Part shown: positions 1,159 to 63,317 of the stretch, piece after piece
How positions within the stretch are numbered: position 1 is the first letter of the stretch
Layout of the letters: each line of letters opens with the position of its first letter
DNA from: Pelagomonas calceolata
Taxonomy: Eukaryota; Sar; Pelagophyceae; Pelagomonadales; Pelagomonadaceae
Length of the DNA stretch: 64,000 nt
Assembly: GCA_918797485.1 (NCBI GenBank)
Contig: CAKKNE010000005.1
Location: 1,240,001-1,304,000 of the forward strand
Direction of reading: 5' to 3'
Notes under the pieces: model-generated
What the model was told of the DNA's origin: nothing
Databases searched by the model: none
Seen by the model: only the letters and a program-made list of their open reading frames with translations
Position numbers and translations under genes: made by a program

Positions 1159-1627
1159 CGTGCGTGCAAGGCTGGGTTGGCTTCGCAGCGATGCTTGTGA
1201 GCTGTGCTGGTCGCGGAGAGCGCTTATGACTTGTTTACACAGCACTGACGCCGGGCTAAAGTCCTTCACTCGTGATTGCTGTGGGCAGTCGCTAGTACCA
1301 AGCCACTAGCATTCGATTTTTGTGAGCCCTCAGTCGCGGTCATTTGCCTCCGCGGACTCGGTTTGGGGCAGGGCCCGCCATTGGGCGGCTTCTAGGCCGA
1401 TTGCCAAACCCGCGTGGTACCGTGACGGGCCCGACGCACCTCCAAGCCCGCCTCGGAGGGCCGAGACGCCGCCAGGGCGTCGGCGATGGTACCTTGGCCC
1501 CGGCCTCACGCCATCGCCGCGACGCGGCTCTGTGAATTTAAACGCCGCGTCTCTACGTTCAAACGACGCCGGAGTTATCTTTCAGAAAACAGGTTATTAC
1601 AGGAGGGGGGTCTTGGAGAGGTCCTAG
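1159..1627. other. Intergenic region upstream of the glutamate synthase gene
   Basis: It holds the presumed promoter and 5' UTR of the GOGAT gene and the 3' end of the AlgH-family gene. A variant of the window-wide GCTAG/CTAGC palindrome lies at 1291-1310, about 140 bp upstream of the GOGAT start. One copy of the dispersed CACGCCATCG motif lies near 1507. No convincing gene was seen. Confidence 0.5.
1291..1310. promoter_or_regulatory. Palindromic CTAG element, weak copy
   Basis: GCTAG and CTAGC half-sites are 10 bases apart with a diverged centre. It has the same half-sites as the better copies at 21207-21230 and 23039-23062 and the same placement upstream of a start codon. Its role is inferred only from recurrence and position. 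Confidence 0.35.
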
Positions 1628-2912
1628 CTAGGTGTCGCCGAACAGGCACTCGTCGGGCCCGTCGACCGTATCACTGGAACAGACCGGTAATTTGGGCGCG
1701 AGCATTTCAATGTCCGCGCTAGACCCGCCGAGCTTCCGCATCAGCGAGTGCCAGAGCGACGCGTCTCTTTCGTTCCCGAGGACCTGGGCCGACGAGCAGG
1801 CCGCGGGTTGATACAATCCACAGTCGACCGCGGTTCGTAATTCGCCCGGTGCGAACTCGTAGCGCCCCACAAAAAAGGCGAACTCCGCCGCATCGGCCTC
1901 GCCGTTGCATACTAATCTCGCGGCGTGCGCGGCGCCGCCTCGATAGATGCCGCAGCCCGGCGCGAGTTCCGTGCTCCCTTCGAGGTCCCGCGTATGCAGC
2001 ATGAGCGCCTCTCCGGACCAGGCCACGCCCTCCCAGTCCTCCACCTCCCTCGATCCCGTATAGACCGTGACCTCGTCGCCGAACGCGGCCTGGAAGTCGT
2101 GGAAGTCCGGGAAGACGCCGTCGAACCTGTGTGGGTCGATCGTGAGACTCCACGCCATCGACCAGCGTCGCGTCGATGGCGTGAAACCTCCACGCCGTCG
2201 AGCAGCCGAAGGAATGGGATCATCATCGGGTCGATGGCGTGGGGCGCCCGGCATGTGATTTCCGCTCCGCGTCTCACTCCAATGCCGCAAACAAAGCCGC
2301 GCTTCTTCTCCGACTCCCCCAGGGCGCGCCGCGGTCCTGCCTGCCCAGTCGTATACACGCGCCCTCATCATCGAGGACCAATACGACGTCCCTCGCTCTT
2401 CTGATCGCCTCATCTCTCATGTTCAGGAATTTGCGATCTTTTAATGTTCGAGCATGCACCGGCGTCTCGGCCACTCTTCTTAATTCTATCGTAGCAAATT
2501 GCCTTGCGAGAGTCCGGTGCCGGCGGTCGCCGTCCGCGTAGTTTCTTTTTTTCATAGGCACGCCTAATGCGCGCGCCGCGGCGAAGCGTTTCTTGGACGC
2601 GAAGCGTCGCACGTCCCGGAACCACGGCGATTTCGCATGGCAGAGCGTCGCCGAGAAGGGCAGCGCGAGCAGCAAGCCGCCGGCCTCGGGTCTCGGTAAC
2701 GCGTGGGCCCAGGCGTCGTCGGCCCACTGCTCGCGCGCTTTGGAATCGAGGCCCGTGGCTTCCAGCTTGGCGCGGAAGCTGCGCCAGTCGACGTCGATGC
2801 TGGTTTCTTGATCTGTAATCGGGGACGCCGGCCGCGGCACGGGCCGGCTCGTCGGCCGCGGGGCGATGTAGGCTTGCGTTACGGCGAGGAAGGCGACGAG
2901 GAGGGCCCGCAT
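1628..2912 (-). CDS. AlgH/UPF0301 (DUF179) family protein, split by an introner
   Basis: The exons are 2912-2278 and 2126-1628 with a GT-AG intron at 2127-2277, giving 377 residues exactly in frame. Family features seen are WAHALPRPEAGGLLLALP, VVLVLDDEGACI, then after the intron VYTGSREV, ALMLHT, the GS.EL.PG.GIYRGG block, EFAFFVGRYEFAPGEL and a tryptophan-containing SLWHSLMRKLGG end. The family is widespread in bacteria and plastid-bearing eukaryotes and has no firmly assigned biochemical role. The N terminus (MRALLVAFLAVTQAYIAPRP) reads as a signal peptide with a Y at the cleavage site, so plastid import is likely. An insert of about 90 residues rich in Arg/Lys sits between the first two conserved blocks. 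Neighbours on both sides are unrelated. Confidence 0.8.
2127..2269 (-). mobile_element. Introner element (non-autonomous DNA transposon acting as an intron), aged copy
   Basis: In gene sense it begins with a decayed inverted repeat (10 of 14 bases match CTGTGTGGAAATCA) and ends in CCCACACAG. The flanking 8-mers GTGAGACG and GTTCGACG match at 6 of 8 bases, as expected for an old target duplication. The 5' splice site is the GT of the left duplication and the 3' splice site is the element's terminal AG. Internally it carries several copies of the CACGCCATCGAC/GTCGATGGCGTG motif in both orientations. Confidence 0.75.
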
Positions 2913-3330
2913 GGTGCTGCGCTTCTTTGCCGAGCTTGTCGCGCCGCGTTCCAGTGGCTCCTGGTGGGCGCCTTGGCTCCAACTCAGAGAAAACGGCTAA
3001 GAGTTTGCTGAAATTTGCAGAGATGCCAGCTCGTGGAAAACTACAGCAGCGACCGCGTTCGCTCGTAGCAATACCGCGAGCGGGCCAAGATCCTGCGCAC
3101 GCTTCTTGCGCGTGCCAATATAATCAGCTAGCGGCATGTAACACACTAGGTGCAGCTAGTCCAGCCGGACGGGTGGGCCCGGGGGGACATGAAATTTACA
3201 TCACTGTCATGATCATCTGATCATCATCAGGCTGGATAGGAACCCGACACCAGGTCGCCGCGTGCCGCCGGGTCGAGGGATATGTTACACCACAAGGGTC
3301 ACCGTGCTATTATATTACACTGCTATAGAG
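2913..3330. other. Divergent intergenic region
   Basis: It is shared upstream region of the AlgH-family gene (leftward) and the gene at 3331 (rightward). It contains one good copy of the palindromic CTAG element (3127-3150). No gene was seen. Confidence 0.5.
3127..3150. promoter_or_regulatory. Palindromic CTAG element
   Basis: The left arm is GCTAGCGGC, the centre contains TGTAA and the right arm is ACACTAGG. It lies about 215 bp upstream of the leftward start and 180 bp upstream of the rightward start, so it could serve both genes. Confidence 0.5.
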
Positions 3331-4977: not shown

Positions 4978-5602
4978 GTTTGCAGCAAAGTGCTATGAGC
5001 GGCTGCTCGCAGCTTTTCAGCAGCAGTTTTGCAAAAATACGACAAGCCGCTAAGCTGAAACGCAGCAGGCAATGCTGCAGGGCCGCAGAGCTAGCAGCTA
5101 GCCTGTGCTGCCGCCGCAAAGGTGGCCGCCTCAGCTTGCTAGTGTGTTACATTCCGCTAGGCCGAAACCCCAATCTTTTACTCGTCATGCTAGGCATTTG
5201 GACGGGTGCGTTGCCTTGCGCGAGGCCTCGATCCACTTCTAGGCTCAGCCCGGCCGGGCTGCCTCAAGGAGTCTTGTGAAACGCGCGGATCACGCTACGT
5301 CAGACGGAAATTGGCCTTGGCAACGGCTGCATGGCTCACTGCTCTTGATTTGGCTGCGCGCCGCTGGAGCTCAAGCGTCCGCATTGCATCTCTCTGACAG
5401 GGTGACCGAGGGCCGACCTGGCTGGTCGCTCGGAGGTCGCGCCGTCAAAGGATCGATCGCGCGTCGCTGGCCCCGCCACGGTCCCTGATTACTGCGGCGG
5501 AGCCCGCCGTCGACACCCCGGTCACAGCAGCGCCAGCTGCGGAGCCGTCACCGGGGGCGACGACGACAGCTCTCGCTTGATTGCCGCTGAGCGACGGCAG
5601 CG
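4978..5602. other. Divergent intergenic region
   Basis: It lies between the CRAL-TRIO gene and the ankyrin-like gene at 5603. It contains a palindromic CTAG element at 5138-5161 and otherwise GC-rich sequence without a supported gene. Confidence 0.5.
5138..5161. promoter_or_regulatory. Palindromic CTAG element
   Basis: GCTAGTGTGTTAC and CCGCTAGG arms form the reverse-complement orientation of the 3127 copy. It lies about 290 bp upstream of the leftward start and 440 bp upstream of the rightward start. Confidence 0.5.
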
Positions 5603-7464: not shown

Positions 7465-7797
7465 GGTGTCCTTACTGATTGCCTGACTTGTGCAAAGCAG
7501 CAGTGATAGTCCTTGTGAGGTCCTCGGCAGTAGCAGTCGGCGCAGCGACGACTATATGCAACAAAACGACCACTTATGCTCTCCTGGCCCACTATAGGCT
7601 TGAGACTGTGCCAAAAAGCGATATGTGCGCGATGCGTGCTAGCGGCATACCGACACTAGCATTCTACAGCTGCAACCAGGCGCGTTTGCGATACCTGCTG
7701 CATAGAAACTTGCCAACGGAGCGCTGCGCAAGCCTTTGCTAGCATACATCGCCGCGCGAGCACAACAGCCACGCAGCGATAGCACCACACAAAAAAA
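7465..7797. other. Divergent intergenic region
   Basis: It is the shared upstream region of the genes at 7464 (leftward) and 7798 (rightward). A palindromic CTAG element lies at 7638-7660, roughly midway. Nothing else was recognised. Confidence 0.5.
7638..7660. promoter_or_regulatory. Palindromic CTAG element
   Basis: GCTAGCGGC and GACACTAGC arms are intact while the TGTAA centre is changed. It lies about 175 bp from the leftward start and 140 bp from the rightward start. Confidence 0.45.
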
Positions 7798-15011: not shown

Positions 15012-15537
15012 TTTGTATCGGTTGTTTGTGTGGCTTGTGGCTTTGCTCGTTCGCGGTTGCACGCGACGGGTTGACTCCAAGCGTGTCTGCTAGAACAGCG
15101 TTGCAGCGACAACTAGCGCTGCGACGCGAGTGAAATAGGTAAGGATAACCTGGCTTGGCAGGCCGCGCCGCAAAGTTTTTGGGCATCTAGTGTCTTTGGA
15201 CGCTAGCTAGCCCGCGCTAGGCTTCCTCTCAGGGGTCCAACGCAACAATGTATACGACTCTGGCGACGGGTCGGAGCGACAAAAGCACGACGCGTGAGCC
15301 GCATTTGGCAGATTTTTGCGCGGCGCAAAGTCTTTAGTAGCCGCAAAGTCGTCGCACGCTATCATCATTGGTTCAAGCCTTAGCTGCAGCCTCCACGCCA
15401 TCGCTGCGACGGGCTGACGAAAGAGGAGCAACGCGCTCACAGACCAGATCTCCAGAGAGAGCATCTCTGCCTGCCTGAAAAAAAGCACACGCATGCGAGA
15501 ACGCATCAAGAAGCCCTGCGAGGAAATAGCAATCAAT
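15012..15537. other. Divergent intergenic region
   Basis: It is the shared upstream region of CAP and the DUF4349 gene. It contains a palindromic CTAG element at 15185-15207 and a CTCCACGCCATCG motif near 15391. No gene was seen. Confidence 0.45.
15185..15207. promoter_or_regulatory. Palindromic CTAG element
   Basis: CTAGTGTCTT and ACGCTAGC arms are in the same orientation as the 5138 copy. It lies about 175 bp upstream of the CAP start and 330 bp upstream of the DUF4349 start. Confidence 0.5.
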
Positions 15538-17037: not shown

Positions 17038-18618
17038 ATGCGCCCGAGCGAGGCCCAGTCCACCGCATTCAAGGCGCTGCCGCCCGCGCGCGGAAATCCT
17101 AGACAACCGTCATTAGTGCTCTTCTACGCCTACCGCGAACCGGCGTGGTCGGCGGCGGAGCATTCAAGAGCCCTGAAGACCTTTATTAAGTTGTGCGAAG
17201 CGCACGACCTCAAGGGCCGCGGGCGGTGCGCGCCCGAGGGCGTGAATTGCACACTAACAGGAGGCCAGCAGCAGATCCGCGCCTTCTGCGCGGCCCTGCG
17301 CGAGTGGGACTCGCAACTCTTCGGCCCCGTCGATTTCAAGATCACGGACGGCTTGCAGAAGAAGGAGGCGTTCAAACGACTCACAATACGAAAAACGGAG
17401 GAATTGGTGGGCTATGGGTTGGGGCAGAGTCAGCCGCAGTTGGCCACGTCCAAGGCGACGCATCTCGACGCTGTTGAGTACCATAAAGCCCTCGAGGACC
17501 CCGACGCGATCGTCGTCGACGTGCGCAACCAGTACGAGACTGTGTGGAAATCAACCAGTGCGTCGGGTGCGCTCGACGGCGAGGAACCGGCATCGCCACG
17601 CCATCGAGCAGGCGGCGCGTCGATGAACGCGCCGTAAAATTTTGATTTCCACAGGTACGAGACCGAAATTGGGCGCATGCGGCCGCCCGCCAACGGCGCC
17701 AAATTCCTAGATCCGAAGGTCCGCAACTCGCACGAGATCCCGCGCTGGCTCAACGCCCCGGAGACGCGCGAGCGGCTCGCGGGGAAGCGGGTGCTCATGT
17801 ATTGTACTGGTGGTATCAGGTGTGAAAGGGCCTCGGCGCTGCTCTCTGAGTTATCGTCGTCGTGTGCCGGTGGAGCCTGCCCGGCGCAAGCGACGCAGGA
17901 CGCCGTCGCGTCAGCGGGCCCCAAGGAAATTGTGATGGTCAGAGGAGGCGTCGAGCGCTACCTGCGGACGTTTCCGGACGGCGGCTATTGGGCGGGTGCG
18001 AACTACCTGTTCGATCGGAGGTTCGAGCAGCGGCCGCTCAAGCGCCAGGCGCCGTTAGGGTCCTGCGCTCTATGTGGCGTGCCCTGCGACCTGTATAGGG
18101 GTAGGGTCGTCTGCGCGGTGAGCACCTGTAAAGTGCCCGTGCTCGTCTGTCAGCCCTGCCGCAACCGCGTCTCACCGGAGGAGGTCGCGTCGAAGGCGAA
18201 GTGCCGCCTGTGCCGCGACAACTTCGCCGGTTCCAAGCGCGTCGAGAAACCCGAAATTGCGGTGAAGGCGGCGCCGGTCGCGGAGAAGACGAGGCCGCCG
18301 GCGCCGCGCCTCTTCGTGGGCAACCTGCCGTTCACGGTCGAACGGGAGGAGGTCCTCTCTACGCTAGACATTGATGGGCGGCTGACGTGGCTCGTGGACC
18401 GCGAGACCTCTCTTTTCTACGGGTCGTGTGTGATCGAGTGCGGTGTTGACGCGGCGACGAAGGTCGTATCGCGCGCGAAGCTCTACCCAACCAAGCTGCG
18501 CGGCCGCAAGTTAAGGCTGGGCTTCGGGCCGGCGGCGCCTGTCGACGGCGCCGAGGGAGTGCGGCCGCCGTGTGCGCGACCGGCGTCCGTGTTCACGTAC
18601 CTTCGAATTCCGAGATGA
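17038..18618 (+). CDS. TrhO/TSTD2-type rhodanese fused to an RRM domain; one introner intron
   Basis: Exons 17038-17531 and 17655-18618 give 485 residues. The N-terminal alpha/beta domain (LVLFYAYREPAW, GRCAPEGVNCTLTGG, FGPVDFKITDGLQKKEAF) and the rhodanese domain (AIVVDVRNQYETEIGRM, RVLMYCTGGIRCERAS with active Cys at residue 215, VMVRGGVERYLRTFPDGGYWAG) match TrhO, which hydroxylates uridine 34 of tRNA in bacteria, and its animal relative TSTD2. A zinc-binding Cys cluster follows (CALCGVPC, CKVPVLVCQPC, CRLCRDNF). The extra C-terminal region (PRLFVGNLPFTVEREEV ... RGRKLRLGF) is an RNA recognition motif not usual in the family. The 5' splice GT lies in the left target duplication. Confidence 0.88.
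17540..17654 (+). mobile_element. Introner element inside the rhodanese gene, recent copy
   Basis: 115 bp with near-perfect inverted repeats: it begins CTGTGTGGAAATCAA and ends TTGATTTCCACAG. The flanking 8-bp duplication GTACGAGA is perfect (17532-17539 and 17655-17662). Splicing from the GT of the left copy to the element's terminal AG leaves one copy of the duplication and restores NQYETEIG exactly. Most of its interior matches the longer copy at 26951, of which it looks like an internal deletion. Confidence 0.92.
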
Positions 18619-19279: not shown

Positions 19280-21046
19280 CTACGCACCCCAGCGCGAGAT
19301 GAGCTCTCCATGATCATCATCAGTCCAGCCCGCGCGCCAGTCGCGCGTCCAGCCGGGGCCCGACCGACGTGGTTGTCGCAAATCCATGAGCTTGCCCGGC
19401 GTGTGGTAATAACTTTCTTCGCCTAAGCCGTGGTAGCCCCGCAGTCGATGGATGAAGGCCGAAAACGTGCTCCAAAAGGCCCCGGCCCACTTCTCCGCTC
19501 GCGAACAGACGATCTGGTCGACCATCCCATAATAATTCGGGTTCAGGTCGCCCAACTCTCGCTTGAAATCTTGCAGCATCACTACCTTCCACCCATACTC
19601 CGTAAACGCATTCCACGACGGGTCATCAGGACAACCCATCTTCTTGTCTCGAGGTATCGGGTAGGTGTGGCAGGGCTTTCTCTCGTAGAGGCAGCCTCGG
19701 CACTCGCCTGTTGGATCATCCGTAGCCAGAAACACCAACGACCCTTTCGGGATATCTATCGGCTTCAAATTTTCAATAATATCTTTCGCGGAAATCTTCG
19801 CGAGGCGATACTGGAAGTCGTTTCTCCTGGCGTGTATTGCATAGAAGGTCGAATTCATGGACCGAATCTTCTGCAATACGCGATGCGCGGCACATTGGAT
19901 CGTATCCTGGTAGCGCATGTAGTCTCGGACAAATCTTTTATAGAACTTGTTCTGTTCCTTGTCCTGGAAGTAGAGGAAGGAGTAGAAGTTTTTGAGTAAT
20001 CTATGACTACCGGTTCCTGGCGAATGGAGGTGCCTCGCACTGTACAGTTCATCTAGCTTGATAACTTTCTGGCCGGGCGGAAAGTTCGTGTTCTTCCATG
20101 ACACGGGAGCATCTCTCCCTTGAGCAGAGAAGGTGGCGAAGCGCGGCCCGACGGGTGGCAGCGTGGCGTCCGACGCCTGAGTCACGGCCTTCCAGATCGA
20201 GCGGCCCTTGGCTGTGATAGGTGCGCCCTTGACCTTGGTAGCTAAAAACTGGTCCATCGTCAGCGTGCGCCAGCCACCATGCGATCCGAGCAGCGTCACG
20301 TTCAGAAAGTCGGCGAAGCCAAAATCGCGCCGCGCGTGGTAGTTGTTCGCGATTAAGTAGAGAGGTTGCGGCGGGGGCAATACTACAGTCCTTCGCAAGA
20401 CATGGCCCAGCACCACGAGACACTCCAGGCCCATGCGGATGTTATTCCAGCCGCCCGCGTCATATTCAAAGGTCAGGTACTTGTCTTGCCTCGGCGGTGG
20501 GAGCGTAGCGGGCGTTTCTAGGGTATTGGACCAGTAGACGACCTCCGATGCCGTCGGCACGTTGTCGCACACGAGCTTGGGCTTTTGACTTTGTGTCTTG
20601 GCGGCCGGTTCCCGCTTCTTGACCTCGTGCCAGACGAGCTGCGGCTTGGGGCGCGCCCCGGCGGCCGGTGGCGCCGCGGCGCGCGCCGGCGGTGGCCTCC
20701 GCGTATGTACTTCCCGCGCGACGGCCTCGCGCGCGGCCGCGACCTCGGCCTCGGCGCGGCGCTCGGCCTCGAGGCGCTCGGCCTCGCGGCGCTCTTGCGC
20801 GGACGGCGCGGCGCCCGTCGGCGGCGGCGAGGCGCGCATCGCCGCCGGTAGCTCGGCGCGTAATTTCCCAAGCAGGCCGGCGCGCGGCGCCACCGGCGGC
20901 GGCTGCGGCTTCGCGCGCAGGTGGTGCGGGCTATGCGTCCCGTCTAGATGCAGCGCTCCTAGCGCGGGCACGCGGTGCTGCACGACCACGACTGTGGCGG
21001 CGAAACCGCACAAAAAGGCTAATACGGCTGGCAGCGAGATGCGCAT
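19280..21046 (-). CDS. GDP-fucose protein O-fucosyltransferase-like type II membrane protein
   Basis: 588 residues. A single N-terminal anchor (MRISLPAVLAFLCGFAATVVVV) is followed by an Ala/Pro/Arg/Glu-rich stem with a short coiled coil (AQERREAERLEAERRAEAEV), then a catalytic region. Motifs are LTFEYDAGGWNNIRMGLECLVVLGHVL and RRTVVLPPPQPLYLI (the NQR.....AxxLAxxLxRTLVLP pattern), FYAIHARRNDF (HxRxxD), VFLATDD and WAGAFWSTFSAFIHRLRGYHG (the conserved FxGTxxSTFS.....RG end). It is expected to act in the Golgi on secreted glycoproteins. The reading frame is open upstream to 21328, but the anchor marks 21046 as the start. Confidence 0.8.
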   Translation of the reverse strand: MRISLPAVLAFLCGFAATVVVVQHRVPALGALHLDGTHSPHHLRAKPQPPPVAPRAGLLGKLRAELPAAMRASPPPTGAAPSAQERREAERLEAERRAEAEVAAAREAVAREVHTRRPPPARAAAPPAAGARPKPQLVWHEVKKREPAAKTQSQKPKLVCDNVPTASEVVYWSNTLETPATLPPPRQDKYLTFEYDAGGWNNIRMGLECLVVLGHVLRRTVVLPPPQPLYLIANNYHARRDFGFADFLNVTLLGSHGGWRTLTMDQFLATKVKGAPITAKGRSIWKAVTQASDATLPPVGPRFATFSAQGRDAPVSWKNTNFPPGQKVIKLDELYSARHLHSPGTGSHRLLKNFYSFLYFQDKEQNKFYKRFVRDYMRYQDTIQCAAHRVLQKIRSMNSTFYAIHARRNDFQYRLAKISAKDIIENLKPIDIPKGSLVFLATDDPTGECRGCLYERKPCHTYPIPRDKKMGCPDDPSWNAFTEYGWKVVMLQDFKRELGDLNPNYYGMVDQIVCSRAEKWAGAFWSTFSAFIHRLRGYHGLGEESYYHTPGKLMDLRQPRRSGPGWTRDWRAGWTDDDHGELISRWGA

Positions 21047-21206
21047 TTTTTTTGGTGGCAGTGTGTAGGCGTGCTTAGGTGTGCCAACGCAGCGCGCAGC
21101 CCAAGCTGCTGTCAGCGAGGGACTGTATACCACTGGCGATAACCAGCACTCGCCAGCACTCGCCTGTAGGCACAAATGCCAGCGTTTTTGTCGGCACAAA
21201 TTATTA

Positions 21207-21230
21207 GCTAGCGGCTTGTAAGACACTAGC
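21207..21230. promoter_or_regulatory. Palindromic CTAG element, consensus copy
   Basis: The left arm is GCTAGCGGC, followed by two variable bases and TGTAAGACACTAGC. It lies about 160 bp upstream of the O-fucosyltransferase start and just 3' of the neighbouring gene's stop. Confidence 0.6.
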
Positions 21231-21251
21231 AAATGGATACATATCACAAGC

Positions 21252-22820: not shown

Positions 22821-23149
22821 TCTTGCGAGATCTGGACGCGTCGGCGCCGTGCGCTTGCGGTTTGTACCGTGAGCGCCGGGCGGCAGATCGTCCTATCTGC
22901 TGCGGGTGGGCCGCACAGCTCGAAATTCGTCTCGAATCGCTGTCCCGCAGCCCCAGGTGAGCGCTTGGCGAGCTATGACGTCACAGGAACCCAGTTATGG
23001 CGCCTCCCGAGTCGTTCTCGATTCGACGCCAGACTAATGCTAGCGGTCTGTAAGACACTAGCAAGGCGCGGACGCCATCGCCGCGTTCATGCACTCCGGA
23101 AAGACACGGATATAACAGAGAATAAGCCGTTACTTAACAGAAGAACGAA
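22821..23149. other. Intergenic region upstream of the BRCT fusion gene
   Basis: It holds a consensus CTAG palindrome at 23039-23062 and a GACGCCATCGCCGCG motif near 23071. It also contains the 3' end of RBX1. No gene was seen. Confidence 0.45.
23039..23062. promoter_or_regulatory. Palindromic CTAG element, consensus copy
   Basis: GCTAGCGG, two variable bases, then TGTAAGACACTAGC. It is nearly identical to the copies at 21207 and 61320. It lies about 220 bp upstream of the BRCT fusion start. Confidence 0.6.
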
Positions 23150-31640: not shown

Positions 31641-32163
31641 CCACGGCTGCAGTCCTCCTCTTCAGAGAGCAAGTGTGGGTAGCGCTGGTTTCGTCCGCTT
31701 CCCGCCCTGCAGCGATCAATGGCGCATCGATGGCGTGCGCTGCGGGCACAATACGATGGTCAGCGGCTCAGTGGGCACGCAGACGCTGTCGACGTAGAAA
31801 CCCGCGAGCTCAGAGGCTCGGGGCTTAATCGCTAGTGATTTAGCTTTAGCTTTGTCTTAGACTCTACAGCCTTAGTGGGCACGCAAGCCGCCGCAGGCAG
31901 CTAGCGTTGTAAGACACTAGAAACGAAAAGGCGCTGCCGCGCTGGGTAGAGACCACGCTTAAAATTCCGTTCCGGCAGCCTTTCAGAGCCGTTTCGGACC
32001 GCAGCAACACGTGCGAGCAGTCCCGACCCCTGCGAGCTCCCAGCACACAGTAGCACACTGCTTGGCTCTGCTCAGCGGTGCTGCGGCGCGCCGTACGCCA
32101 TCGACGCGAAGAGTTCAGAGACATCGAGGCTCCGAAAAGGACGCCACCGACGCGCCTGGGCGA
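31641..32163. other. Divergent intergenic region
   Basis: It is shared upstream region of the SMYD-like and hydrolase genes. It contains a CTAG palindrome at 31900-31920 and two copies of the dispersed CATCGA(C/T)G motif near 31725 and 32095. No gene was seen. Confidence 0.45.
31900..31920. promoter_or_regulatory. Palindromic CTAG element, slightly shortened
   Basis: GCTAGCGT then TGTAAGACACTAG, missing two to three bases of the left arm. It lies about 260 bp upstream of each divergent start. Confidence 0.5.
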
Positions 32164-33178: not shown

Positions 33179-33202
33179 GCTAGTGTGTTACTGGAAGCTA
33201 GC
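33179..33202. promoter_or_regulatory. Palindromic CTAG element
   Basis: GCTAGTGTGTTACTG and AAGCTAGC arms. It sits in the 120-bp gap between two head-to-tail genes, 74 bp before the ATG at 33276, the closest of all copies to a start codon. Confidence 0.55.
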
Positions 33203-33275: not shown

Positions 33276-34292
33276 ATGCGTGCGTTACTGCAGCGCACGC
33301 GACGCGCGCAGACAGTCGCGCATCGCTGTCGCAGCGTAACCGGCCCGTCGAGAGCCTTGGCAGCCACACAACGCAGAACAACGCTGCGCAGCGCAATACT
33401 GCGCCGCACAGCAGCGCTCCGCAGAACCAGCACCGATGCCACGCCGAAGAAAGAGAAGCCGCCGTCGTTCCACAGTGAAAAAGGGGGCGTCGTCGAAAAC
33501 ATGAAAACAAGCGCGACGCGCAACGCAGAAACTCTGCCGGCCCTCAACGACCTCGTGGGCCTCGCGGGCTTCGGGCTGATCACGGTGCAATGGTTGATGG
33601 ATGATGTATTGGTACTACGAAGCTTCGGCCTGGCGTCCTGTGCGTCGATGATTATCTTCAATCTCTGCCGCAAGCCGCCGGTGATGCTCCCGGTGTATTT
33701 CAACGTGCTTTTCATTGCGGTCAACGGGTACTTCGTCGCGCGAATCATGGATGAAAGAAGGGACATCGAGTTATGTGGCGACGCCGCCGCCCTGTGGGAT
33801 ACGGCACTCTCGGACTCGGGCTTACCGCGCAAAGGCGTGCAATTGCTGGTGGAGGCGGGTGACCTAGTATTGCTGCAGCCGGGCGAGATCCGCTCGCGGG
33901 AAGGCGCGCCGCGGCGGAATCGAGTCGCGATAATTCTCGAAGGTTCGGTGTCGGTGGATCTCTCCGGAGAGCACCTCGCAGACATACCCGTCGGCGACTG
34001 CGTCGGCGAGTTCGGCTACGTCAATAAGCGGGGCATCGACGACCCCGTCGAGCATGTGAGTACGTCGTGTGGCGGCAGCGCGGCCTGCCGTCTGATCTCG
34101 TGGGACTACGAAGAGCTCGACGCGCACGTCGCATCGCGACCGGATGCTAAACGCGCCCTCGAGCACTTTTTCGCCAAGAAGCTGCTGGAGAAGCTGGAGC
34201 ACATGAATGAGATGCACGTCCACGACCAGCAGCTCCTCCACCCAGGAGGACAAGGTCGCCTCTCCCGCTGGCGGCGATCGCTCCTCGGGTGA
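33276..34292 (+). CDS. Popeye-domain-like membrane protein with probable mitochondrial presequence
   Basis: 338 residues. MRALLQRTRRAQTVAHRCRS is a basic, Ser/Thr-rich presequence. Then come LVGLAGFGLITVQWLMDDVLVLRSFGL, CASMIIFNLCRK, PVMLPVYFNVLFIAVNGYFVARIM (three short hydrophobic segments as in POPDC proteins). A cyclic-nucleotide-binding-type beta roll follows (LLQPGEIRSREG, VAIILEGSVSVDLSGEHLADIP, GDCVGEFGY) and ends with CRLISWDYEELDAHVASR and FFAKKLLEKLEHMNEM, matching the Popeye W....L ending. In animals Popeye proteins bind cAMP. The characteristic DSPE of the animal nucleotide site is here GEFGY. Confidence 0.7.
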   Translation: MRALLQRTRRAQTVAHRCRSVTGPSRALAATQRRTTLRSAILRRTAALRRTSTDATPKKEKPPSFHSEKGGVVENMKTSATRNAETLPALNDLVGLAGFGLITVQWLMDDVLVLRSFGLASCASMIIFNLCRKPPVMLPVYFNVLFIAVNGYFVARIMDERRDIELCGDAAALWDTALSDSGLPRKGVQLLVEAGDLVLLQPGEIRSREGAPRRNRVAIILEGSVSVDLSGEHLADIPVGDCVGEFGYVNKRGIDDPVEHVSTSCGGSAACRLISWDYEELDAHVASRPDAKRALEHFFAKKLLEKLEHMNEMHVHDQQLLHPGGQGRLSRWRRSLLG

Positions 34293-35919: not shown

Positions 35920-36017
35920 GTTTCAGTTAGTCATCTTTTGCATTCATGCGCATGTGGCTATATCATTTAGCCACTTGTGCGGCCATTTCACGGCCTTTTG
36001 CCTGTGCTGCTTTGTTT

Positions 36018-36041
36018 CTAGTGCCTTTACAGCACGCTAGC
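36018..36041. promoter_or_regulatory. Palindromic CTAG element
   Basis: CTAGTGCC, TTTACAG and ACGCTAGC. It sits in the 280-bp divergent gap between the genes starting at 35919 and 36202, about 100 bp from the first and 160 bp from the second. Confidence 0.5.
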
Positions 36042-43500: not shown

Positions 43501-46500
43501 TCGTCTTGACCGAACCAGTTCGTACCATACCAGGGAAGTGCTTCCCCAGGGCGCCTAGTTCTATCGGATCACCGAGTTTCGTGCCCGTGCCGTGGGCTTC
43601 GATCAGTGCTACGGCTCCGTCATACGTAGAATAGGCCGCCCTTAATACGGCCTGTTGCGCTTTTGGATTGGGCGCCGTCAGGCCGTTGCTTCTACCGTCC
43701 TGGCCGATCCCGATGCCTACTATACCTTCAGTACCCCTTTCTAGTAAAAAAGCACCAACACCCTCGCCTCGGACGTAGCCGTCCGCGGCGTTATCACCAA
43801 ATTTGCATCGGTAGGACGGGCTTAGCATGCCCGCGGCCGCAAAACAGTCGGACCACTGCGGTCTCAGCTGTAGGTTCGCACCGCCGACTAGTACTGCAGA
43901 ACATTCGTTCCCATCCAATGAACGTTTCGCTACTGACAAACAAGTCAGGGACGAGGAGCAGGCCGTGTTTAGCGCTACGGACGGGCCCCTTAAATCAAAA
44001 GTGTAACTCACGCGATTCGGCGCCACGGCCGTGTGAGAGCCCGTCCCCGTGTAAGGTGATGGTTTATGCTGTTGCAGGTACGCGTAGTCCGACGTCTCGA
44101 TGGCGCAGAAGACGCCTATTTGGAGACCGTTGTCACTGTTCAAAGCCGGCGTGGCCCGGTAGCCCGCCGTTTCCAGGCTTTCCGCGCAGCACGCTAAGAA
44201 GAGTCTTTGCTGCGGGTCCGTGGCCGCCGCTTCCGCTCTCGACATCCCAAAAGCTTGAGCATCGAACATTGATACTGTAGAAGCCTTCAGGTAGGCTCCT
44301 GGCCTCCCCGTGTGCGGGCGGTCCGCCGGGACGCCTGTCACGCAATCTCTGCCGTCAAGTAAAGCCTTCCACAACTCTTGGGCGTCGCCGGCCGCCGTTC
44401 TTAGGGACATGGATGTGATCCGTAGAGCTTCACTAAGCGTTTGTTTTTTAAGTGGTAACGCCCGCTCGATTGCCACCACAGGAAATAATTTGGACAGGAC
44501 GTGGTCCCGGATGCCTCGCAGCGACACGCACTCGTAGGCCAGTGTGGGAGGTAACTTGAGAGAGAGGGCCTCGCTCAGCGACGCCGCCAAGGCGGTCGCT
44601 CCCAGCGACGTCACGCCTAGGGACGTCACGGCCGCGTCTAGCTCGAAGCGCGGCACGAGCGTCTTCATAAAGTCGTCCAATTGACGGATGCGGTTGCCCT
44701 CGTCCAAGGACTCGAGCGTCGCCCGCAGTGAGGATGCCGTTTCCGTGGGTGTACACATCGTAGCGGCGAGCGGGTGCGGTTCTGATCGACAAGCGGCGTA
44801 GCGCGCCCAGTTCATCGGCAGGACCGCCGCGGAGGATAATGAGGAGGTAGCTAACGCTGTAAGTGCCGAAAATCCCTCATCGAGCGAGAGCATGCCCAGG
44901 CCCGAGGCCTCTTGCATTTGAGCGAACTCCGAACCCAGGCGATGCGCCATGCCCGCTCCCGCCCACGTGCCCCAGGCGATGCTCAACGCCGGCAGTCCTT
45001 CACTACGTCGTTGGGCACACAAGGCGTCCTGGAAGGCGTTTGCGGCCGCGTACGCGCCGAGGCGCTCGTGGCCGAGCAAGCCATAGACCGACGTGAAGAC
45101 CACGAAGCGGTCCACTTCGTACTGTCGCGTCGCTGCATCCAAATTGCGGGAGCCTTGTACCTTCGGCGCCAGTACTTTAGCTAAATGTGTTTGATCAATC
45201 TCGGCGATAGATGCACTATCGAGCACGCCGGCGAGGTGCCACACGCTTATTGGTTTCTGGTAGGCCTTGGCCCTCTTTATTAATGAAAGAACGTCTTGTT
45301 CGTCGGTGATGTCGCATTGCACGTAGTGATCGCATTTTAACGTCTCGGGCTTCGTCGCCCGCCGGCCGGCGACGAGGACCGTGCCCGTGAGGCGCGCCGC
45401 CCAGGCCGCGCCGAGGCCGCCGGCGCCTCCCACAATCACGTGGACGCCTCCACCAACGTCGTCGCTGGCGTCGACCTCTACTTTTTGTAAACTGGGCACG
45501 AGGCGACTTCCTCTTCGCCACGCGGCCTCCGGCGTATTACATGAGAGCTCCTTCGGGATACTGTCTTCGTCATCAACGTCGACGACGCGCACGTCGACGC
45601 CTTCGGCTCTTGCTGCGCGACAGAGCCCCCACACCGCGCCCGCAGCTGGCCTTACGACGTCGTCATCATTGATGAAGAGACCGCGCGTCACGATAAGTAC
45701 GGAGTGGCCGCTGGTCGCTTGGAGCGCCGCGAGCACTTGCTTTATACAATATTCGGCTTCGCCGTCGACGACGACCACGAGCGCGCTCTCTGGTCTTAAC
45801 GCTTCGGCGATGCGTGTTCGCTCCTCGGTTAAAGTCCCGGTCATGGCCTCTAAACGCGTGTCGCCGAAGCTCGCCTCACCAATAACGACGACGTGGTTCG
45901 GCCTATTCAACGATTGCGCTGCAGCAGCGACCCACGATACATCATAGACGTGCTCGACGGGCTTTGACAAGTCCCGCTTCCGAAGTAAGGCCTTTGCGAC
46001 CTTGCCCGAGCCCGTGAGAGGGAGCGATTCCACTAGATCTATATGTGAAGGCACTTTGTAGTCCGCCAGGAATTTCGAGCAGTGACGACGCAGCGCCTCC
46101 GCTGTACAAGAACCGACAACCTTGGCGACCACGCGCTCGCCCATGGACTCGCAGGGCAACCCATAGACGCACGCCGTCTTCACGTGAGGATGGTCGTGCA
46201 GCACCCGTTCCACCTCACAGCAATAGACGTTCTCGGAACCGACCAGTATCATATCTTTCGCTCGGTCCACGATCGTGATGTAACCGTAACTATTGATAGT
46301 AGCTAAGTCGCCGGTCCGGAACCACTCTTTGTTGTAAAAGGCTTTTGAGGTGGCTTCGTCATTATTATCGTACCCTTGGAACACCGTAGGACCCCGGATC
46401 CAGACCTCCCCAACTTCTGATGCAGTGACGTCCACCGGTTGTTCAGTAGAGTCCCAGTTCCGCACCACCCTTAAATCAATCAACCCAAAGGCCTTGCCTG

Positions 46501-47665
46501 AGGTAGTGATGAGCTCGACGGGGTCGCCCTCGTTTATTATCGATGTTGAAATCTTCCCGCAACATTCGGTCATGCCGTAGGACAGGAAGAACTCGCACCC
46601 AAAAATGCGTTGGGCTTGCCGCACCGTTTCCGTTGATAGAGGAGCGCCGCCGCAGGACAGGAGTTCCAGGGACGTTGTGAGTGGTCGGGCGCAGCGCGGA
46701 TCTTTCAACAGTAGCGACACCATCGTCGACGCCATGTTCGTCACCGTGACGCCATGGTGACAGAGGGCGTCCAATGTCTTCGTCGCATCGAAGCTCGGTA
46801 ATATGAGATGCCTTCCTTGTACAAATGTGAGCGCGAAAATAGCATAAGCATCCACTAGATGGAACATCGGCGCCACGTGGAGCCAGACGTCTTTTGATGA
46901 GATGCGGTGCTCCACGATACATTGCAGAGCGTGGAGGAGCACGTTTCTTCTCGTGAGTACGACTCCTTTCGGTCGTCCTGACGTTCCAGACGTGTAGTAC
47001 ATCTCGGCGCTGGCTACGCTTAAAGCGTCGTCCGGTCGCTCGGGGACGGGTCCTTTCGACGCTACGTCTTCATACGTCGAAGCGTCCAGCGTTATTTGAT
47101 CACTCCGCGCTGCCGCCACGAGATCGCGATACATCCCATCCACAATTAACACCTTGCAGCCGGCGTGTTCTAAACACCATTTCAGTTCCGAAGGGGCCAA
47201 TCTTGGATTGCAGTTCAGCAGCGTGAGGCCGCCGAAGGCGCAGGCGTAGTGGGCCTCGAACGCGAGTAGCGAATTGGGCGCGACGAGACCGACGCGGTCG
47301 CCGGCTTTTAAGTGAAGCCGGAGCCAGCCGCCAATACGCGCGCATCTAGATCGTGTCTCGGCGTAGGACCGTCGCACGCCCGTGGCCAAATCGCGCAGCG
47401 CGTCGGCCCGGTCCGCGTCCGCGAGAAGCTGCCAGAGGTCGCAGGCCGCGCCGCGCAGGTGCGCCGCGAGCGCCGCTTGCGCTGCCGACGTGTCGGCCGT
47501 GCGCCGCTCGTCTTTGATCTCGAGGACGATGTTGCGCGGCGAGGCCGGTTTAGGTGGTGGTGGCGGGGGCTGCCCAATATTATTTTGCAGCGCATCGGCC
47601 GGCGGGTTCGCGCGGCTGCGCGCCTGCCGCGCCCAGCGGGCGGCCTGGCGCTCGGCCCGCGACAT
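37583..47665 (-). CDS. Giant acyl-AMP ligase / type I polyketide synthase with membrane hexapeptide-repeat terminal region
   Basis: About 3,360 residues in one exon. Residue numbers count from the upstream Met at 47740; 47665 is the likelier start. Order: adenylation/acyl-AMP ligase (about 60-600; YYTSGTSGRPKGVVLTRRN, LSYGMTECCG, GEVWIRGPTVFQGY, WFRTGDLATI, ILVGSENVYC); ketoreductase 1 (about 620-960; VIVGGAGGLGAAWAARL, Tyr897 in AYAAAN); carrier 1 (GVTSLGA, Ser1045); ketosynthase (about 1090-1510; NTACSSS, Cys1261; EAHGTGTKLGDP; KTNIGHLEG); acyltransferase (about 1600-1900; FVFTGQGAAYAG, GHSLGE with Ser1676); ketoreductase 2 (about 1930-2390; AISGGTGALGQRTAKHLL, Tyr2289); carriers 2 and 3 (both GLDSLDAM, Ser2434 and Ser2507); then about 800 residues with several membrane helices alternating with left-handed beta-helix (hexapeptide) blocks, as at the end of Pls-type peptide synthetases. 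No thioesterase was seen. The product is unknown. Confidence 0.93.
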   Translation of the reverse strand: MSRAERQAARWARQARSRANPPADALQNNIGQPPPPPPKPASPRNIVLEIKDERRTADTSAAQAALAAHLRGAACDLWQLLADADRADALRDLATGVRRSYAETRSRCARIGGWLRLHLKAGDRVGLVAPNSLLAFEAHYACAFGGLTLLNCNPRLAPSELKWCLEHAGCKVLIVDGMYRDLVAAARSDQITLDASTYEDVASKGPVPERPDDALSVASAEMYYTSGTSGRPKGVVLTRRNVLLHALQCIVEHRISSKDVWLHVAPMFHLVDAYAIFALTFVQGRHLILPSFDATKTLDALCHHGVTVTNMASTMVSLLLKDPRCARPLTTSLELLSCGGAPLSTETVRQAQRIFGCEFFLSYGMTECCGKISTSIINEGDPVELITTSGKAFGLIDLRVVRNWDSTEQPVDVTASEVGEVWIRGPTVFQGYDNNDEATSKAFYNKEWFRTGDLATINSYGYITIVDRAKDMILVGSENVYCCEVERVLHDHPHVKTACVYGLPCESMGERVVAKVVGSCTAEALRRHCSKFLADYKVPSHIDLVESLPLTGSGKVAKALLRKRDLSKPVEHVYDVSWVAAAAQSLNRPNHVVVIGEASFGDTRLEAMTGTLTEERTRIAEALRPESALVVVVDGEAEYCIKQVLAALQATSGHSVLIVTRGLFINDDDVVRPAAGAVWGLCRAARAEGVDVRVVDVDDEDSIPKELSCNTPEAAWRRGSRLVPSLQKVEVDASDDVGGGVHVIVGGAGGLGAAWAARLTGTVLVAGRRATKPETLKCDHYVQCDITDEQDVLSLIKRAKAYQKPISVWHLAGVLDSASIAEIDQTHLAKVLAPKVQGSRNLDAATRQYEVDRFVVFTSVYGLLGHERLGAYAAANAFQDALCAQRRSEGLPALSIAWGTWAGAGMAHRLGSEFAQMQEASGLGMLSLDEGFSALTALATSSLSSAAVLPMNWARYAACRSEPHPLAATMCTPTETASSLRATLESLDEGNRIRQLDDFMKTLVPRFELDAAVTSLGVTSLGATALAASLSEALSLKLPPTLAYECVSLRGIRDHVLSKLFPVVAIERALPLKKQTLSEALRITSMSLRTAAGDAQELWKALLDGRDCVTGVPADRPHTGRPGAYLKASTVSMFDAQAFGMSRAEAAATDPQQRLFLACCAESLETAGYRATPALNSDNGLQIGVFCAIETSDYAYLQQHKPSPYTGTGSHTAVAPNRVSYTFDLRGPSVALNTACSSSLTCLSVAKRSLDGNECSAVLVGGANLQLRPQWSDCFAAAGMLSPSYRCKFGDNAADGYVRGEGVGAFLLERGTEGIVGIGIGQDGRSNGLTAPNPKAQQAVLRAAYSTYDGAVALIEAHGTGTKLGDPIELGALGKHFPGMVRTGSVKTNIGHLEGCSGLVGLAKACHALREGVVPRSLHFKTPNTAVDWSSITIVTKNEDLGGGAVGVSSFGFGGALGHVVVTGRKVTRREEVVNSEALVVPLEAHSSASLRATCKRIKVWSQKENVDDVAKCLVKRSSLNKRRYRTAAVVPAKGGRAALAAALETVAINEHEGDVALAFVFTGQGAAYAGAVTSLLGDEAFRAAYEDAVHACSTHMDVSNLNRLGKDAAADELLDDASLAQPYGFCIAYALSKSILAKTTTKLEAVIGHSLGEIAACCVAGVLSLHDAARLVVLRGRAVATRASEGATVAVNASAEAVEALVNVEVAADNSMHGCAIAGEVEAVDVAIEALTEQGFKTKRLRAATGYHSRCVDGCLQDLPTVTFQPSNVAVYSTVTGARLSDEGDDYWKRQLRSKVRFREALNALRASSSKRLIIVEVGCAPHLSPHVDGEVVCTLRGPKRLGSEPTLLAEAVSKLFTKGVDLTEAESSLKAPPTVFVGERCWFEERREATTPQRNLTGRTFSSQWVPASLLRATALQVLVLRDEESPLSVAIRENVRERRGRCVELPLLAAAATAQTWDCVVFLAPTCVQEVAVPEEERPASEATPLIPSSQDATVMIDDACRRASRVASMASSTAGALQAALKCALNQRGPRRLVACTSDASEASSIAAGCVEGLMRAARREAGLAGSALVLRTLAVDDASHEDVAEELLSDREDDALLEKNTISVRRLQPVDESMPVSVNGLTIAISGGTGALGQRTAKHLLKRGAARILLLARNTTTVDGCEVYRVDVSSPESVSRFAVEHGSSIDGLIHAAGLCGDGALPSRDLESLRKALKPKLEGALLLSAAVDAARQACHKPPVQMDVAFSSISSLLGNAGQTDYACSNGGLDARARYLSTVKGRRPRTCLAINWGPWRCGMASLAKHHGSGTPNAPYDALAEEDALSALDGALSKSGNICVARFDCEAVALAASREPILGRFLGVSSTKEEPSTVVVDPLKAVARIVAKHTTVSSLTAATPLQTLGLDSLDAMACVRELNAVTGACLSVIDVLGAKTLGEVASLVPTSVESDCSTDVLDVLQRHCASTVEPQTRLASLGLDSLDAMAVVKDLSDATGKAWSVSDVLGAETLGDITLKAASRRAISVGKANEPKAEDKIPVKDLEEPCLLRRLWFTLLARIVGAQIAVCGAMPAFVLENYLPTRWRLAPKMWVLEARVGARVALWVEAQLPRPSRPYPGLPRNAFLRDQRLEFITTGLHAWTPSYVFIARFTIELCITGVVYYVLWCLGCHLACAVGKWIVVGRQRAGRFPIWESSIGYRNALWQSAVPLSFSAFWWHAPWLPPCIQIWFLRAMGCSVGSRCCLRGPIAWDAPPGDLLTIGDGVVMSPNATVDTTSLTSTTVITLGHVRIESNVKIGDGAEVRHGAHISEDAKVCAGAGCQTYVARSATFPENRVAVDTVVRCTDGKDAYPLPLLTFLVLMPLVHFICALPAVSLLLRAPLILRRRPVVFGLSVLGAALLRGILEPCALGLIVRMLQRKLERGKTYTLSRFFVSTHETRVFWRKLFIASCEAPFSFTPLCNVAWRWAGATVGQKGVVLSELHGAVDAPELIEIGSDSYLGAHVTLRPLKVEGSTVTAVGVTIGDGCFVGPNTLLQPGSMIKGATGANSIISSHEIVPDGRVAIGDAQKPCTLAWRPQRLDASTEWGWAFTSSLAMFATERLGHVVAVQAPRILLWVALGFVGRYPWSPPLHEVRVASLIHEAHTTPLLRVWLTLSTVASRNAALVLLLVACLVMADPLKPLTHVVFKWLVVGKATETSKVPLRSGQHLRWACVQKLARCPAVDGAWRHVYEYASIYASCVGFKLGSRVRFYPYPSLLLAGAAEADLVEIGDGTVTSAATYAHDFSMLHLAMKPTSIGRGCDLGLSRHGQVLPGSQLPAGTVIQAPGRATHLAGLCGEAHQAWAGNPLVRCAFPEAEYADAC

Positions 47666-53503: not shown

Positions 53504-53526
53504 GCTAGTGCCTTACGGCCGCTAGC
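53504..53526. promoter_or_regulatory. Palindromic CTAG element
   Basis: GCTAGTGCCTTACGG and CCGCTAGC arms. It sits in the 180-bp divergent gap between PIG-X (start 53468) and the carboxypeptidase (start 53649), only 36 bp from the former start. Confidence 0.55.
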
Positions 53527-61319: not shown

Positions 61320-61343
61320 GCTAGCGGCCTGTAAGACACTAGG
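61320..61343. promoter_or_regulatory. Palindromic CTAG element, consensus copy
   Basis: GCTAGCGGCC then TGTAAGACACTAGG. It is in the 286-bp gap between two head-to-tail rightward genes, about 190 bp upstream of the start at 61529. Confidence 0.55.
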
Positions 61344-61528
61344 CTGAGGCTAGGCATAGGAAGCTAGCTAGCCGGGGCGCGGTGCCGGTGCAGCGCACAC
61401 AACTGGGTGCCTGGGTCGCTTAGCTGCTTCGCATCCGTCATTATTCGTCGCATCCCACGCGCAAAAAGGCTGCCTCCGACCAAGTTAGCACACGCCATTC
61501 CAAGGCAGGGCAGAGGCAGCGGGCAGCC

Positions 61529-62911
61529 ATGCGCGCGCGGCTGCCCTTGCTCGTCGCCGCCGCCGCGGCAGCCTGTGACTACTATCTGGACGACGGCACG
61601 TGCTGCAACGCCGGCAACTCCGAGGGTCCGCAGACGCTCCTCAAAGCGCCGGCGACGTTAATTGCCAGTGATGGCCTGAAGGCCGATCTACGGCTCGATC
61701 TCCAGTATCGACGGCATCCGAACGAGGCCTGGCAGCCCATCGGCAAGGATGCTGTAGTACCAACCCATAGCCGCGACGCGCACGTTTTTGTCGTGCGCGA
61801 CGACTTTGGCTCCGTAGCACACGTGCACGGGGCTTGGGAGGGCTCGGACTTTATACTGCGGGACGTGCCCTTCGTGAGCGGAGGAAATCACCGCATCCTG
61901 GCGTCCTTCGCCGTCGACGCGAACGTTCTCAACATCTGCGTCGACGAGTCGAGCGTGCACGCGCATCCGACGGCCGGCGTCCCGGGCCACATCTGGGTCC
62001 ACGCCGCGACGGAGTCCTCTGTTTCATTACCCGGTACGGAGACGACCACGCAAGACCCCTGGGACCTTTCAAAGACGCAGAACGCCACCTTGACGACTTT
62101 GGTGGACGGCGAGCTCCCGACGGCCTTCTCCACCCCACGCTTGCAATGCCCCGGCGGTCCCGAAGCGATCACACTGGACCTGGAGACGCCTTCCCTAGAG
62201 CTGGCGCATGCCCAATGCTCGCGACTTACTTGGCAAGCGTCGGCGCCCCTCACACCGTACTTGGGCGCCGCGGCCCATATACTGATAGCCCGGTTCAATG
62301 GTGATCTAATGCACACGCACGCGACAATACCAGAACGAGTGCTAGGCGACCCCTGCGCGGCGAGTTTCGTGGGTCATTTCGACGACCTGACGCCGTTGCC
62401 TACAAAACTGAATCACACGGTCGTCGGCGCCGTCGACTTTGATGAGCCTGGCATCTATCTGGTCGCGGCCTTCGTCGCGACCGGTGATGATGCTCTTGCG
62501 GCGTTCCACACCGTTCTGGTCGGCGAGGCTTGTGTCGCTGCGGAGGTGGTCCCTCACTGTGCGGGCGAATGGCGGCTTCCATCAACGGCCTGCGAGGCGG
62601 GCTTCCCGCGCGAGCCGTCGCCACGACCGACGCTTGCGCCGACGACGACGCCCGCGCCGATGTCCGGGTCGCGGGGAGCCCGAACGTCTAGTGGAGGCGA
62701 CGGAGGCGGACCCAAGGGGAACTTCAAGGTCGTCTTCGGCATGATCGTCTTCTTCGTGCCGCTCGGCCTGGCGCTGCTCTACTGCCTCCGGGGGCGCATC
62801 GTCATGTTTGCGCGGAAGGCGCGGCGCCGCGTTACGGCCGCGGTCTGTGCCACTAGTGGTACCACAGACTGTACGTGCGTCGAGATGCCTCCCCAGCGGG
62901 AATTCGCTTGA
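61529..62911 (+). CDS. Secreted/type I membrane protein of unknown function
   Basis: 460 residues. Signal peptide MRARLPLLVAAAAAACDYYL, then a beta-rich ectodomain with an early immunoglobulin- or FixH-like segment (LKADLRLDLQYRRHPNEAW, AHVFVVRDDFGSVAHVHGAW, ILRDVPFVSGGNHRILASF). A second similar segment occurs further on (AAHILIARFNGDLMHTHATI, GAVDFDEPGIYLVAAFVA). The two have the same order of strands and HxH residues, suggesting an internal duplication. A Thr/Pro stalk, one transmembrane helix (VVFGMIVFFVPLGLALLYCL) and a basic/Cys-containing tail close it. The HVH/HTH histidines could bind metal; this is an inference. Confidence 0.62.
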   Translation: MRARLPLLVAAAAAACDYYLDDGTCCNAGNSEGPQTLLKAPATLIASDGLKADLRLDLQYRRHPNEAWQPIGKDAVVPTHSRDAHVFVVRDDFGSVAHVHGAWEGSDFILRDVPFVSGGNHRILASFAVDANVLNICVDESSVHAHPTAGVPGHIWVHAATESSVSLPGTETTTQDPWDLSKTQNATLTTLVDGELPTAFSTPRLQCPGGPEAITLDLETPSLELAHAQCSRLTWQASAPLTPYLGAAAHILIARFNGDLMHTHATIPERVLGDPCAASFVGHFDDLTPLPTKLNHTVVGAVDFDEPGIYLVAAFVATGDDALAAFHTVLVGEACVAAEVVPHCAGEWRLPSTACEAGFPREPSPRPTLAPTTTPAPMSGSRGARTSSGGDGGGPKGNFKVVFGMIVFFVPLGLALLYCLRGRIVMFARKARRRVTAAVCATSGTTDCTCVEMPPQREFA

Positions 62912-63317
62912 CGTGCTCTTTTTCGCGCGTTCTCTCTTCTAATTTTCTGTTTCGTTATACTATTTTTCGGTGCTATGACTAGTGGGCGGAGCCCCTGGGG
63001 GGAGACACCGCGCGTCGCCGATTCATCGGCGGCGGGCGCGAGCCGCTGCAGGCAGTCCAATTTCTAGTGTCTTACAAAAACGCTAGCTCGCGCATACGAC
63101 ACCTCATCGGCCGAAAGCTCTCCGTCAACGCGATTCGATCGGTGGGCGAGCGAGCTGCAATACCTGCGACACCTACGCTCGCGGCTACGGATACTTTTGG
63201 CTGCTGCGAGAGCAGTATCACTACAAACCTCCCAAGGCCTCTCAAGGCGCAGCAGCGTTGCCAGGCGCGCACGCGGCCAGCGCGAGCCCCCAGAGCGAAA
63301 TATAGTCAGCAGCAGCA
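62912..63317. other. Intergenic region upstream of the NADH dehydrogenase gene
   Basis: 406 bp. It holds a CTAG palindrome at 63063-63087. The first part is T-rich after the preceding stop. No gene was seen. Confidence 0.45.
63063..63087. promoter_or_regulatory. Palindromic CTAG element
   Basis: CTAGTGTCTTACA, an A-run and ACGCTAGC. It lies about 230 bp upstream of the ATG at 63318, in the same sense orientation as the copy before the Popeye-like gene. Confidence 0.55.

Follow-up and report, generated by a model that had tools for sequence, protein, structure and literature searches.

A directional two-block motif of promoter-containing gaps in Pelagomonas calceolata, probably bound by a general DNA-binding protein

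The window considered here is a 64,000-nucleotide stretch of the pelagophyte alga Pelagomonas calceolata (contig CAKKNE010000005.1, contig 5 of the assembly, positions 1,240,001 to 1,304,000), in which a two-block motif of about 24 bases recurs between genes. Seven of its copies lie in divergent gaps: 3127..3150 on the forward strand (GCTAGCGGCATGTAACACACTAGG, with ~215 bp and 181 bp to the two predicted starts), 5138..5161 (reverse), 7638..7660 (forward; GCTAGCGGCATACCGACACTAGC), 15186..15207 (reverse; spacer of 2 bases, matrix score 18.5), 31900..31921 (forward; spacer 2), 36017..36041 (reverse; spacer 5), and 53504..53526 (reverse; spacer 3). The others lie in tandem gaps. Two of these are exact copies on the forward strand, at 21207..21230, upstream of the reverse-strand gene 19280-21046 (~161 bp to its predicted start), and at 23039..23062, upstream of the reverse-strand gene 21252-22820 (~219 bp). 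A longer open frame, 19280-21328, would span the former, and its first part is not called coding by our gene model. The remaining tandem copies are at 33179..33202 (reverse), upstream of the forward-strand gene 33501-34292; at 61320..61343 (forward), upstream of a forward-strand gene starting at 61529 (~186 bp to the predicted start); and at 63063..63087 (reverse; spacer 5), upstream of a forward-strand gene starting at 63318 (~231 bp). An initial annotation, made from the letters of the window, had listed 14 copies. Its 11 main copies exist at positions at most 1 base off and on the strands given, and the seven that it placed in divergent gaps are divergent in our gene models too. Of the three that it called weak, the one at 7638 turned out to be fair, with a matrix score of 12.2 on the forward strand (a looser scan reads it on the reverse strand), whereas those at 1291 and 16720 score below 5 and fall in the motif-negative set, leaving 12 of the 14 in place. 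The gaps at 11081 and 29163, which it had described as free of the motif, indeed contain no CTAG. A search of the window with the right half alone (up to 3 mismatches) gave 10 matches against 2.2 expected by shuffling (maximum of 100 shuffles, 6), and nine of the 10 are copies already in that list.

Gene models were obtained from a seven-state coding model trained on a 264-kb sample, consisting of the window and 100 kb from each of two other contigs; the model returned 181 coding segments, of which 31 do not reach a stop (probably introns) and 8 lack an ATG. A matrix of the two blocks, trained partly on the same copies on which it was then counted, reaches a score of at least 8 in 38 of 53 divergent gaps and 23 of 67 tandem gaps in this sample but in none of 30 convergent gaps, for gaps of at least 80 bp (19 convergent and 3 tandem gaps were shorter and were dropped). 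Across 421 coding segments, each 400 bp long, no score attains that threshold, the best being 5.1. With up to 4 mismatches allowed, we recovered 35 copies in 53 divergent gaps, 21 in 70 tandem gaps, and none in 49 convergent gaps. The difference between divergent and convergent gaps is significant both by Fisher's test (P = 1e-11) and per base (Poisson P = 4e-6); the convergent gaps would by their length be expected to hold 12.4 copies rather than 0 (P = 4e-6), and their shortness is not the cause. Tandem gaps include introns, so the rate given for them is a minimum. The restriction of the motif to divergent and tandem gaps supports the earlier proposal of a promoter-associated element, and a role as terminator was rejected on the 0 of 30 convergent gaps. 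The further statement that no copy lies in coding sequence stands for good copies only: two weak matches (3 to 4 mismatches) in the sample are coding, and among the 61 matches of a looser scan 3 are coding and 1 is in a convergent gap, each with one poor or mismatched half. An equal density inside coding sequence, which would have spoken against the proposal, was not observed.

The same motif is abundant throughout the genome searched (32,445,274 bases, 8 contigs); for P. calceolata strain RCC100, PMC9481584 gives 32.4 Mb, 6 chromosomes, 63.6% GC, and 16,667 genes. The block TGTAAGACACTAGC alone occurs 1,177 times (596 forward, 581 reverse) and the bipartite pattern GCTAGCG-N0-6-GTAAGACACTAG occurs 1,794 times (899 forward, 895 reverse), against 0 for the mirror control of each. 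Taking all versions together, we estimate ~5,000-7,000 copies genome-wide, a range that can be derived from the density of promoter-gap copies in the sample (56 in 264 kb) or from the proportion of exact copies among them (20 of 56). The motif probably precedes thousands of genes. Pieces of it also rank top among the over-represented 10- and 12-mers of the sample.

The consensus reads A-GCTAGCG-K-(gap)-TGTAAGACACTAGC-AA, and the 56 sample copies, which were not selected for any variant, resolve it into the blocks A-GCTAGCG-G/T and T-GTAA-G/C-ACACTAG-C-A-A. The spacer between GCTAGCG and GTAA is of 4 bases in 37 of these copies, 3 in 7, 2 in 5, 5 in 4, 0 in 2, and 1 in 1. Conservation extends beyond GCTAGCG..CACTAGC by 1 base on the left and by 2, weakly up to 5, on the right. 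The copies are uniform, with an information content of 34.7 bits (37.5 relative to base composition), a figure raised somewhat by the mismatch limit of the copy search. From the near symmetry of the arms the initial annotation had suggested a dimeric protein, and here the genome-wide counts point the other way. Mixed arms, GCTAGCG-N10-CACTAGC, occur at 1,261 sites (mirror control 1), as against 8 sites with the symmetric arms GCTAGTG-N10-CACTAGC (control 0) and 5 with GCTAGCG-N10-CGCTAGC (control 2). Hence, although the arms resemble an inverted repeat of GCTAGYG, they are not interchangeable, and the site has a direction. Together with the asymmetric, strongly conserved middle TGTAA and the variable spacer, these counts led us to reject a symmetric homodimer site. 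Linked subclasses, with A/C at one place tied to G/C at another, were likewise rejected, as 37 unbiased spacer-4 copies displayed no strong association; an earlier matrix had been biased at these positions by 20 source loci picked by one variant, and the repeat matrix omitted them. Genome-wide, GTAAC comes after GGCAT in 27 of 166 matches; for GGCCT, with 262 matches, it does so in 9 among the first 100 listed. The association is weak at best. Apart from these, four variant sites (~C2:1043927, C2:1050243, C2:1092621, and C1:1012487) join a (G/A)CTAGCG arm to a TACTAG arm across a different middle, which is ACATACTAG in three of the four; they may represent another class of this element.

The placement of the copies within gaps is nonrandom. 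In the sample, the median distance from motif to ATG is 190 bp in divergent gaps (10th to 90th percentile, 100-295 bp) and 185 bp in tandem gaps, and a peak at 175-225 bp emerges once 28 loci chosen for the presence of the motif are added (one copy at the edge of its fetched stretch and one weak coding match, both from chosen loci, were left out). Distances of 124-250 bp account for 66% of the total, against a mean of 33% for random placement in the same 56 gaps and a maximum of 54% in 5,000 simulations; a random position relative to gene starts, another finding that would have counted against the proposal, was thus not observed. In divergent gaps (n = 35) the copy lies near the middle, with a mean offset from the center of 0.126 of the gap, compared to 0.25 for uniform placement. 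Orientation displays no clear preference, the copies in 21 tandem gaps being in the same direction as the gene in 7 cases and in the opposite direction in 14 (P = 0.19). No sampled gap contains two copies. Were each gene to have its own copy at the tandem rate, ~6 of the 53 divergent gaps would be expected to contain two (P ~0.001 for seeing none), and on this basis a single copy most likely serves both genes of a divergent pair. Close pairs of the motif do exist elsewhere in the genome, on contig 1 near 575,900 and on contig 2 near 5,955,000.

The sequences on either side of the motif carry two further signals. Of the 56 sample copies, 36 have a run of at least four A or T at 4-32 bp from one or both edges, compared with 13 that have such a run in a ring 64-92 bp away (57 of 84 against 23 of 84 with the chosen loci added), and TTTT read toward the gene peaks at 12-24 bp from the motif edge, with 43 occurrences against 7.8 expected. 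Between motif and start codon, ATG is depleted relative to its complement CAT, at 111 to 303 in 134 segments (segments of at least 450 bp and gene models lacking an ATG were left out of these counts). The depletion sets in from the motif edge: over their initial 30 bp, 107 divergent segments contain 11 ATG and 31 CAT. Convergent gaps have no such bias (85 ATG to 96 CAT). This pattern would fit leaders that begin close to the motif. A search near the motif for a start-site word at a fixed offset found none, and mainly returned the A/T runs at 12-24 bp.

We interpret the motif as the probable target of a sequence-specific DNA-binding protein with a general role, promoter proximal and shared by divergent genes, and tentatively favor a proximal over a core promoter element. 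Under this interpretation, a general protein would bind once per promoter region, in either orientation and ~190 bp before the start codon; the bound protein and the short A/T tracts on its flanks would keep the stretch free of nucleosomes; transcription would start outward from the opened stretch, close to the motif; and in divergent pairs the single site would serve both genes. The generality of the motif, already suggested in the initial annotation, is borne out by the 19 window genes with an upstream copy that were scanned, which share no evident function: 11 of them have a Pfam family above the cutoff, of unrelated kinds, including CAP, O-fucosyltransferase, aminotransferase, carboxypeptidase, SET, and PIG-X proteins. 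Of the 25 other genes of the window, 10 were scanned, and 7 of these have a Pfam family, among them ribosomal protein L15e.

Among known systems, the motif would most likely work in the manner of the sites of yeast general regulatory factors or of human ZNF143, although its sequence is unlike those of Reb1 and ZNF143. The sites of yeast Reb1, Abf1, and Rap1, like the motif, occur in promoters of many genes, in both orientations, in bidirectional promoters, and beside poly(dA:dT), and two features of this kind recur here, namely, promoters of functionally unrelated genes (the 19 window genes) and flanking poly(dA:dT), in the form of short runs of at least four (36 of 56 against 13 of 56). The motif differs from the yeast sites in sequence, in being far longer and more uniform (~35-37 bits), and in consisting of two blocks with a spacer of 0-5 bases. 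The Reb1 motif is TTACCCG; this word is not in the consensus, Reb1 being the only yeast factor compared. Oomycete initiator-type elements sit at the start site and are unlike the motif in sequence; along with diatom promoter elements, they resemble it in being promoter elements of stramenopiles. PMC8163841 reports that nucleosomes are positioned symmetrically around Reb1, regardless of which way its motif points. The human ZNF143/THAP11 site is, like the motif, long, and PMC11118474 describes the ZNF143 site as a degenerate 29-base motif whose TGGGA core is recognized by zinc fingers 5 and 6 of the seven, and ZNF143 as stimulating initiation; where that paper deals with motifs enriched in bidirectional promoters, its subject is a set of initiation-type factors. 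By comparison, the motif looks much less degenerate, and TGGGA is absent from its consensus. A protein with a long C2H2 array was considered as the reader and is not evident, as an exon-by-exon search, the counts of which are lower bounds, recovered only two single zf-C2H2 matches in the genome.

Several observations weigh against this interpretation. The gene starts come from our own coding model and a nearby ATG rather than from cDNA. The motif is not universal, 15 of 53 divergent gaps being free of it. Marking 6,000 sites in this genome needs ~13.4 bits, and the motif holds more than twice that; because its information so far exceeds the need, more than one protein may bind. The depletion of ATG is not clearly special to promoters with the motif: counted on the same basis, divergent gaps with it have 91 ATG to 193 CAT and those without it 40 to 60 (P = 0.18). 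A weak bias of like kind is found on the upstream side in tandem gaps (14 ATG to 28 CAT), which may reflect divergent noncoding transcription or something else. Finally, the comparison with diverged fragments given below is biased, as both fragments were found through the exact motif.

The strongest competing explanation, which we nonetheless consider unlikely, is a strict core promoter element that contacts the initiation machinery and fixes two divergent starts at set distances. The generality of the motif and the onset of ATG depletion at its very edge, from which starts may lie within tens of bases, would both accord with such an element; the broad 100-295-bp spread of distances to ATG, the lack of a clear orientation preference (7 to 14), and the absence of a fixed-offset start-site word tell against it. 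Quite improbable is an operator of one regulon, responding, for example, to light or iron. It would explain why only part of the promoters carry the motif, and it gains something from a second promoter word, GGCTGCC/GGCAGCC, which is commoner in divergent gaps without the motif (10 of 15) than in those with it (16 of 38), a tendency that tandem gaps lack (9 of 43 without, 9 of 24 with); it is hard to reconcile with an estimated 5,000-7,000 copies for 16,667 genes and with neighboring genes as diverse as those for CAP, SET, PIG-X, and other proteins. A highly improbable alternative is that the motif marks replication origins or chromatin boundaries that favor promoter gaps, transcription itself having no need of it. 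Sites of these types are common in open promoter DNA, and sequence alone cannot tell them apart from promoter elements, but an occupancy of 38 of 53 divergent gaps would be far denser than origins need, and convergent gaps have no copies. Least credible is a dispersed mobile repeat with a preference for promoters, for which the great uniformity of the copies, an information content well above need, and a slight excess of 5-mers common to both flanks (13.5% against 8.9% shuffled, P = 0.10) could be cited, and which we rejected because the copies have neither target-site duplications (adjacent duplications of at least 3-mers, 1.4% against 1.3% shuffled in 74 copies) nor shared flanks beyond a few bases outside the motif, besides forming no strongly linked subfamilies (lowest permutation P = 0.005 over 78 position pairs) and being absent from convergent gaps. 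The flanking duplications that the initial annotation had named as a sign of such a repeat were thus not observed. In contrast, TGTGTGGAAATCAACCAGT does behave as a mobile, introner-like end, with 16 matches distributed over coding sequence (9), tandem gaps (5), and divergent gaps (2).

Outside the assembly, a 20-base pattern was found in two contigs of a bacterial/archaeal collection (CAJWEZ010000013.1 and CAJWOS010000634.1). Both are chimeric, joining bacterial genes (MgtE and MurB; MgsA) to short Pelagomonas-like stretches that match the genome of the window at 96% and 90% in one contig and at 89% in the other. In both fragments all 24 of the 24 motif bases are identical to the genome copy, with substitutions and indels within some bases of the motif. 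As both were found by the motif, its unchanged state in two diverged fragments lends modest support to conservation. Mimicry by viruses was also considered and rejected: viral contigs, from a collection that may omit records near the genome of the window, gave 0 matches to the 20-base pattern, and the 48 viral stretches with a 14-mer match, one each, were taken as chance.

A literature search, which did not extend to most preprints, supplements, and subscription papers, found no description of the motif. Neither the 13-mer nor its complement had a literature match, the P. calceolata papers that were text-searched do not contain the word "motif" or, where it was looked for, "promoter," and nothing on how pelagophytes mark promoters was found in the papers searched. 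Pelagophytes include one of the most abundant algae of the ocean, and a site this dense and precise, recognizable from its pattern, would yield promoter calls by the thousand and a way into bidirectional gene pairs, besides supplying components for expression tools and bait with which to fish for the factor. The information content of the motif, at more than twice what the copy number needs, poses the puzzle of how the sites stay uniform. A bolder proposal, to which we give only tentative credence, is that an entire class of algae uses it as the principal promoter signal of the nucleus: a single, near-invariant bipartite site through which a lineage-specific factor would open a third or more of promoters and drive them in both directions, largely replacing TATA-type elements. 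The factor would perhaps be a domesticated transposase or else a protein whose two domains are joined by a flexible linker.

Other words were also noted in the gaps. GGCTGCC/GGCAGCC occurs 45 times in divergent, 26 in tandem, and 0 in convergent gaps, and 56 times in 205 kb of coding sequence. AAAACCCG leans to gaps free of the motif (4 of 15 against 1 of 38 divergent gaps and 7 of 43 against 0 of 24 tandem gaps; 2 of 30 convergent gaps). A ACGCCATCGACGCG-like word (CGATGGCGT) is over-represented in divergent, tandem, and convergent gaps (12, 30, and 8) and is thinner in coding sequence (23 in 205 kb). Ends of the form GTGGAAATCA occur as inverted pairs ~50-190 bp apart, one end continuing ACCAGTG and the other AAATTTT, at 17541-17559 (forward) and 17643-17652 (reverse) of the window and at C1:1035926-1036125 and C2:1051755-1051867. 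These look like introner-type mobile introns; PMC9481584 mentions that intron lengths peak near 210 bp, as those of introner elements do. On contig 1, a region at ~2.52-2.93 Mb has zero matches to two full-length patterns and one 14-mer match, at 2,695,655. Two 5-kb samples from it have 48% and 52% GC and little called coding, although the coding model, being trained on high GC, may miss genes there; it is probably a low-GC centromere region. Because of their low GC (36% and 35% in the readable part of the first 10 kb), the two small contigs of 90,574 and 39,373 bases are probably organelles. Within the window itself, positions 37583-47665 of the reverse strand form a single open frame of ~3,360 codons with no predicted intron.

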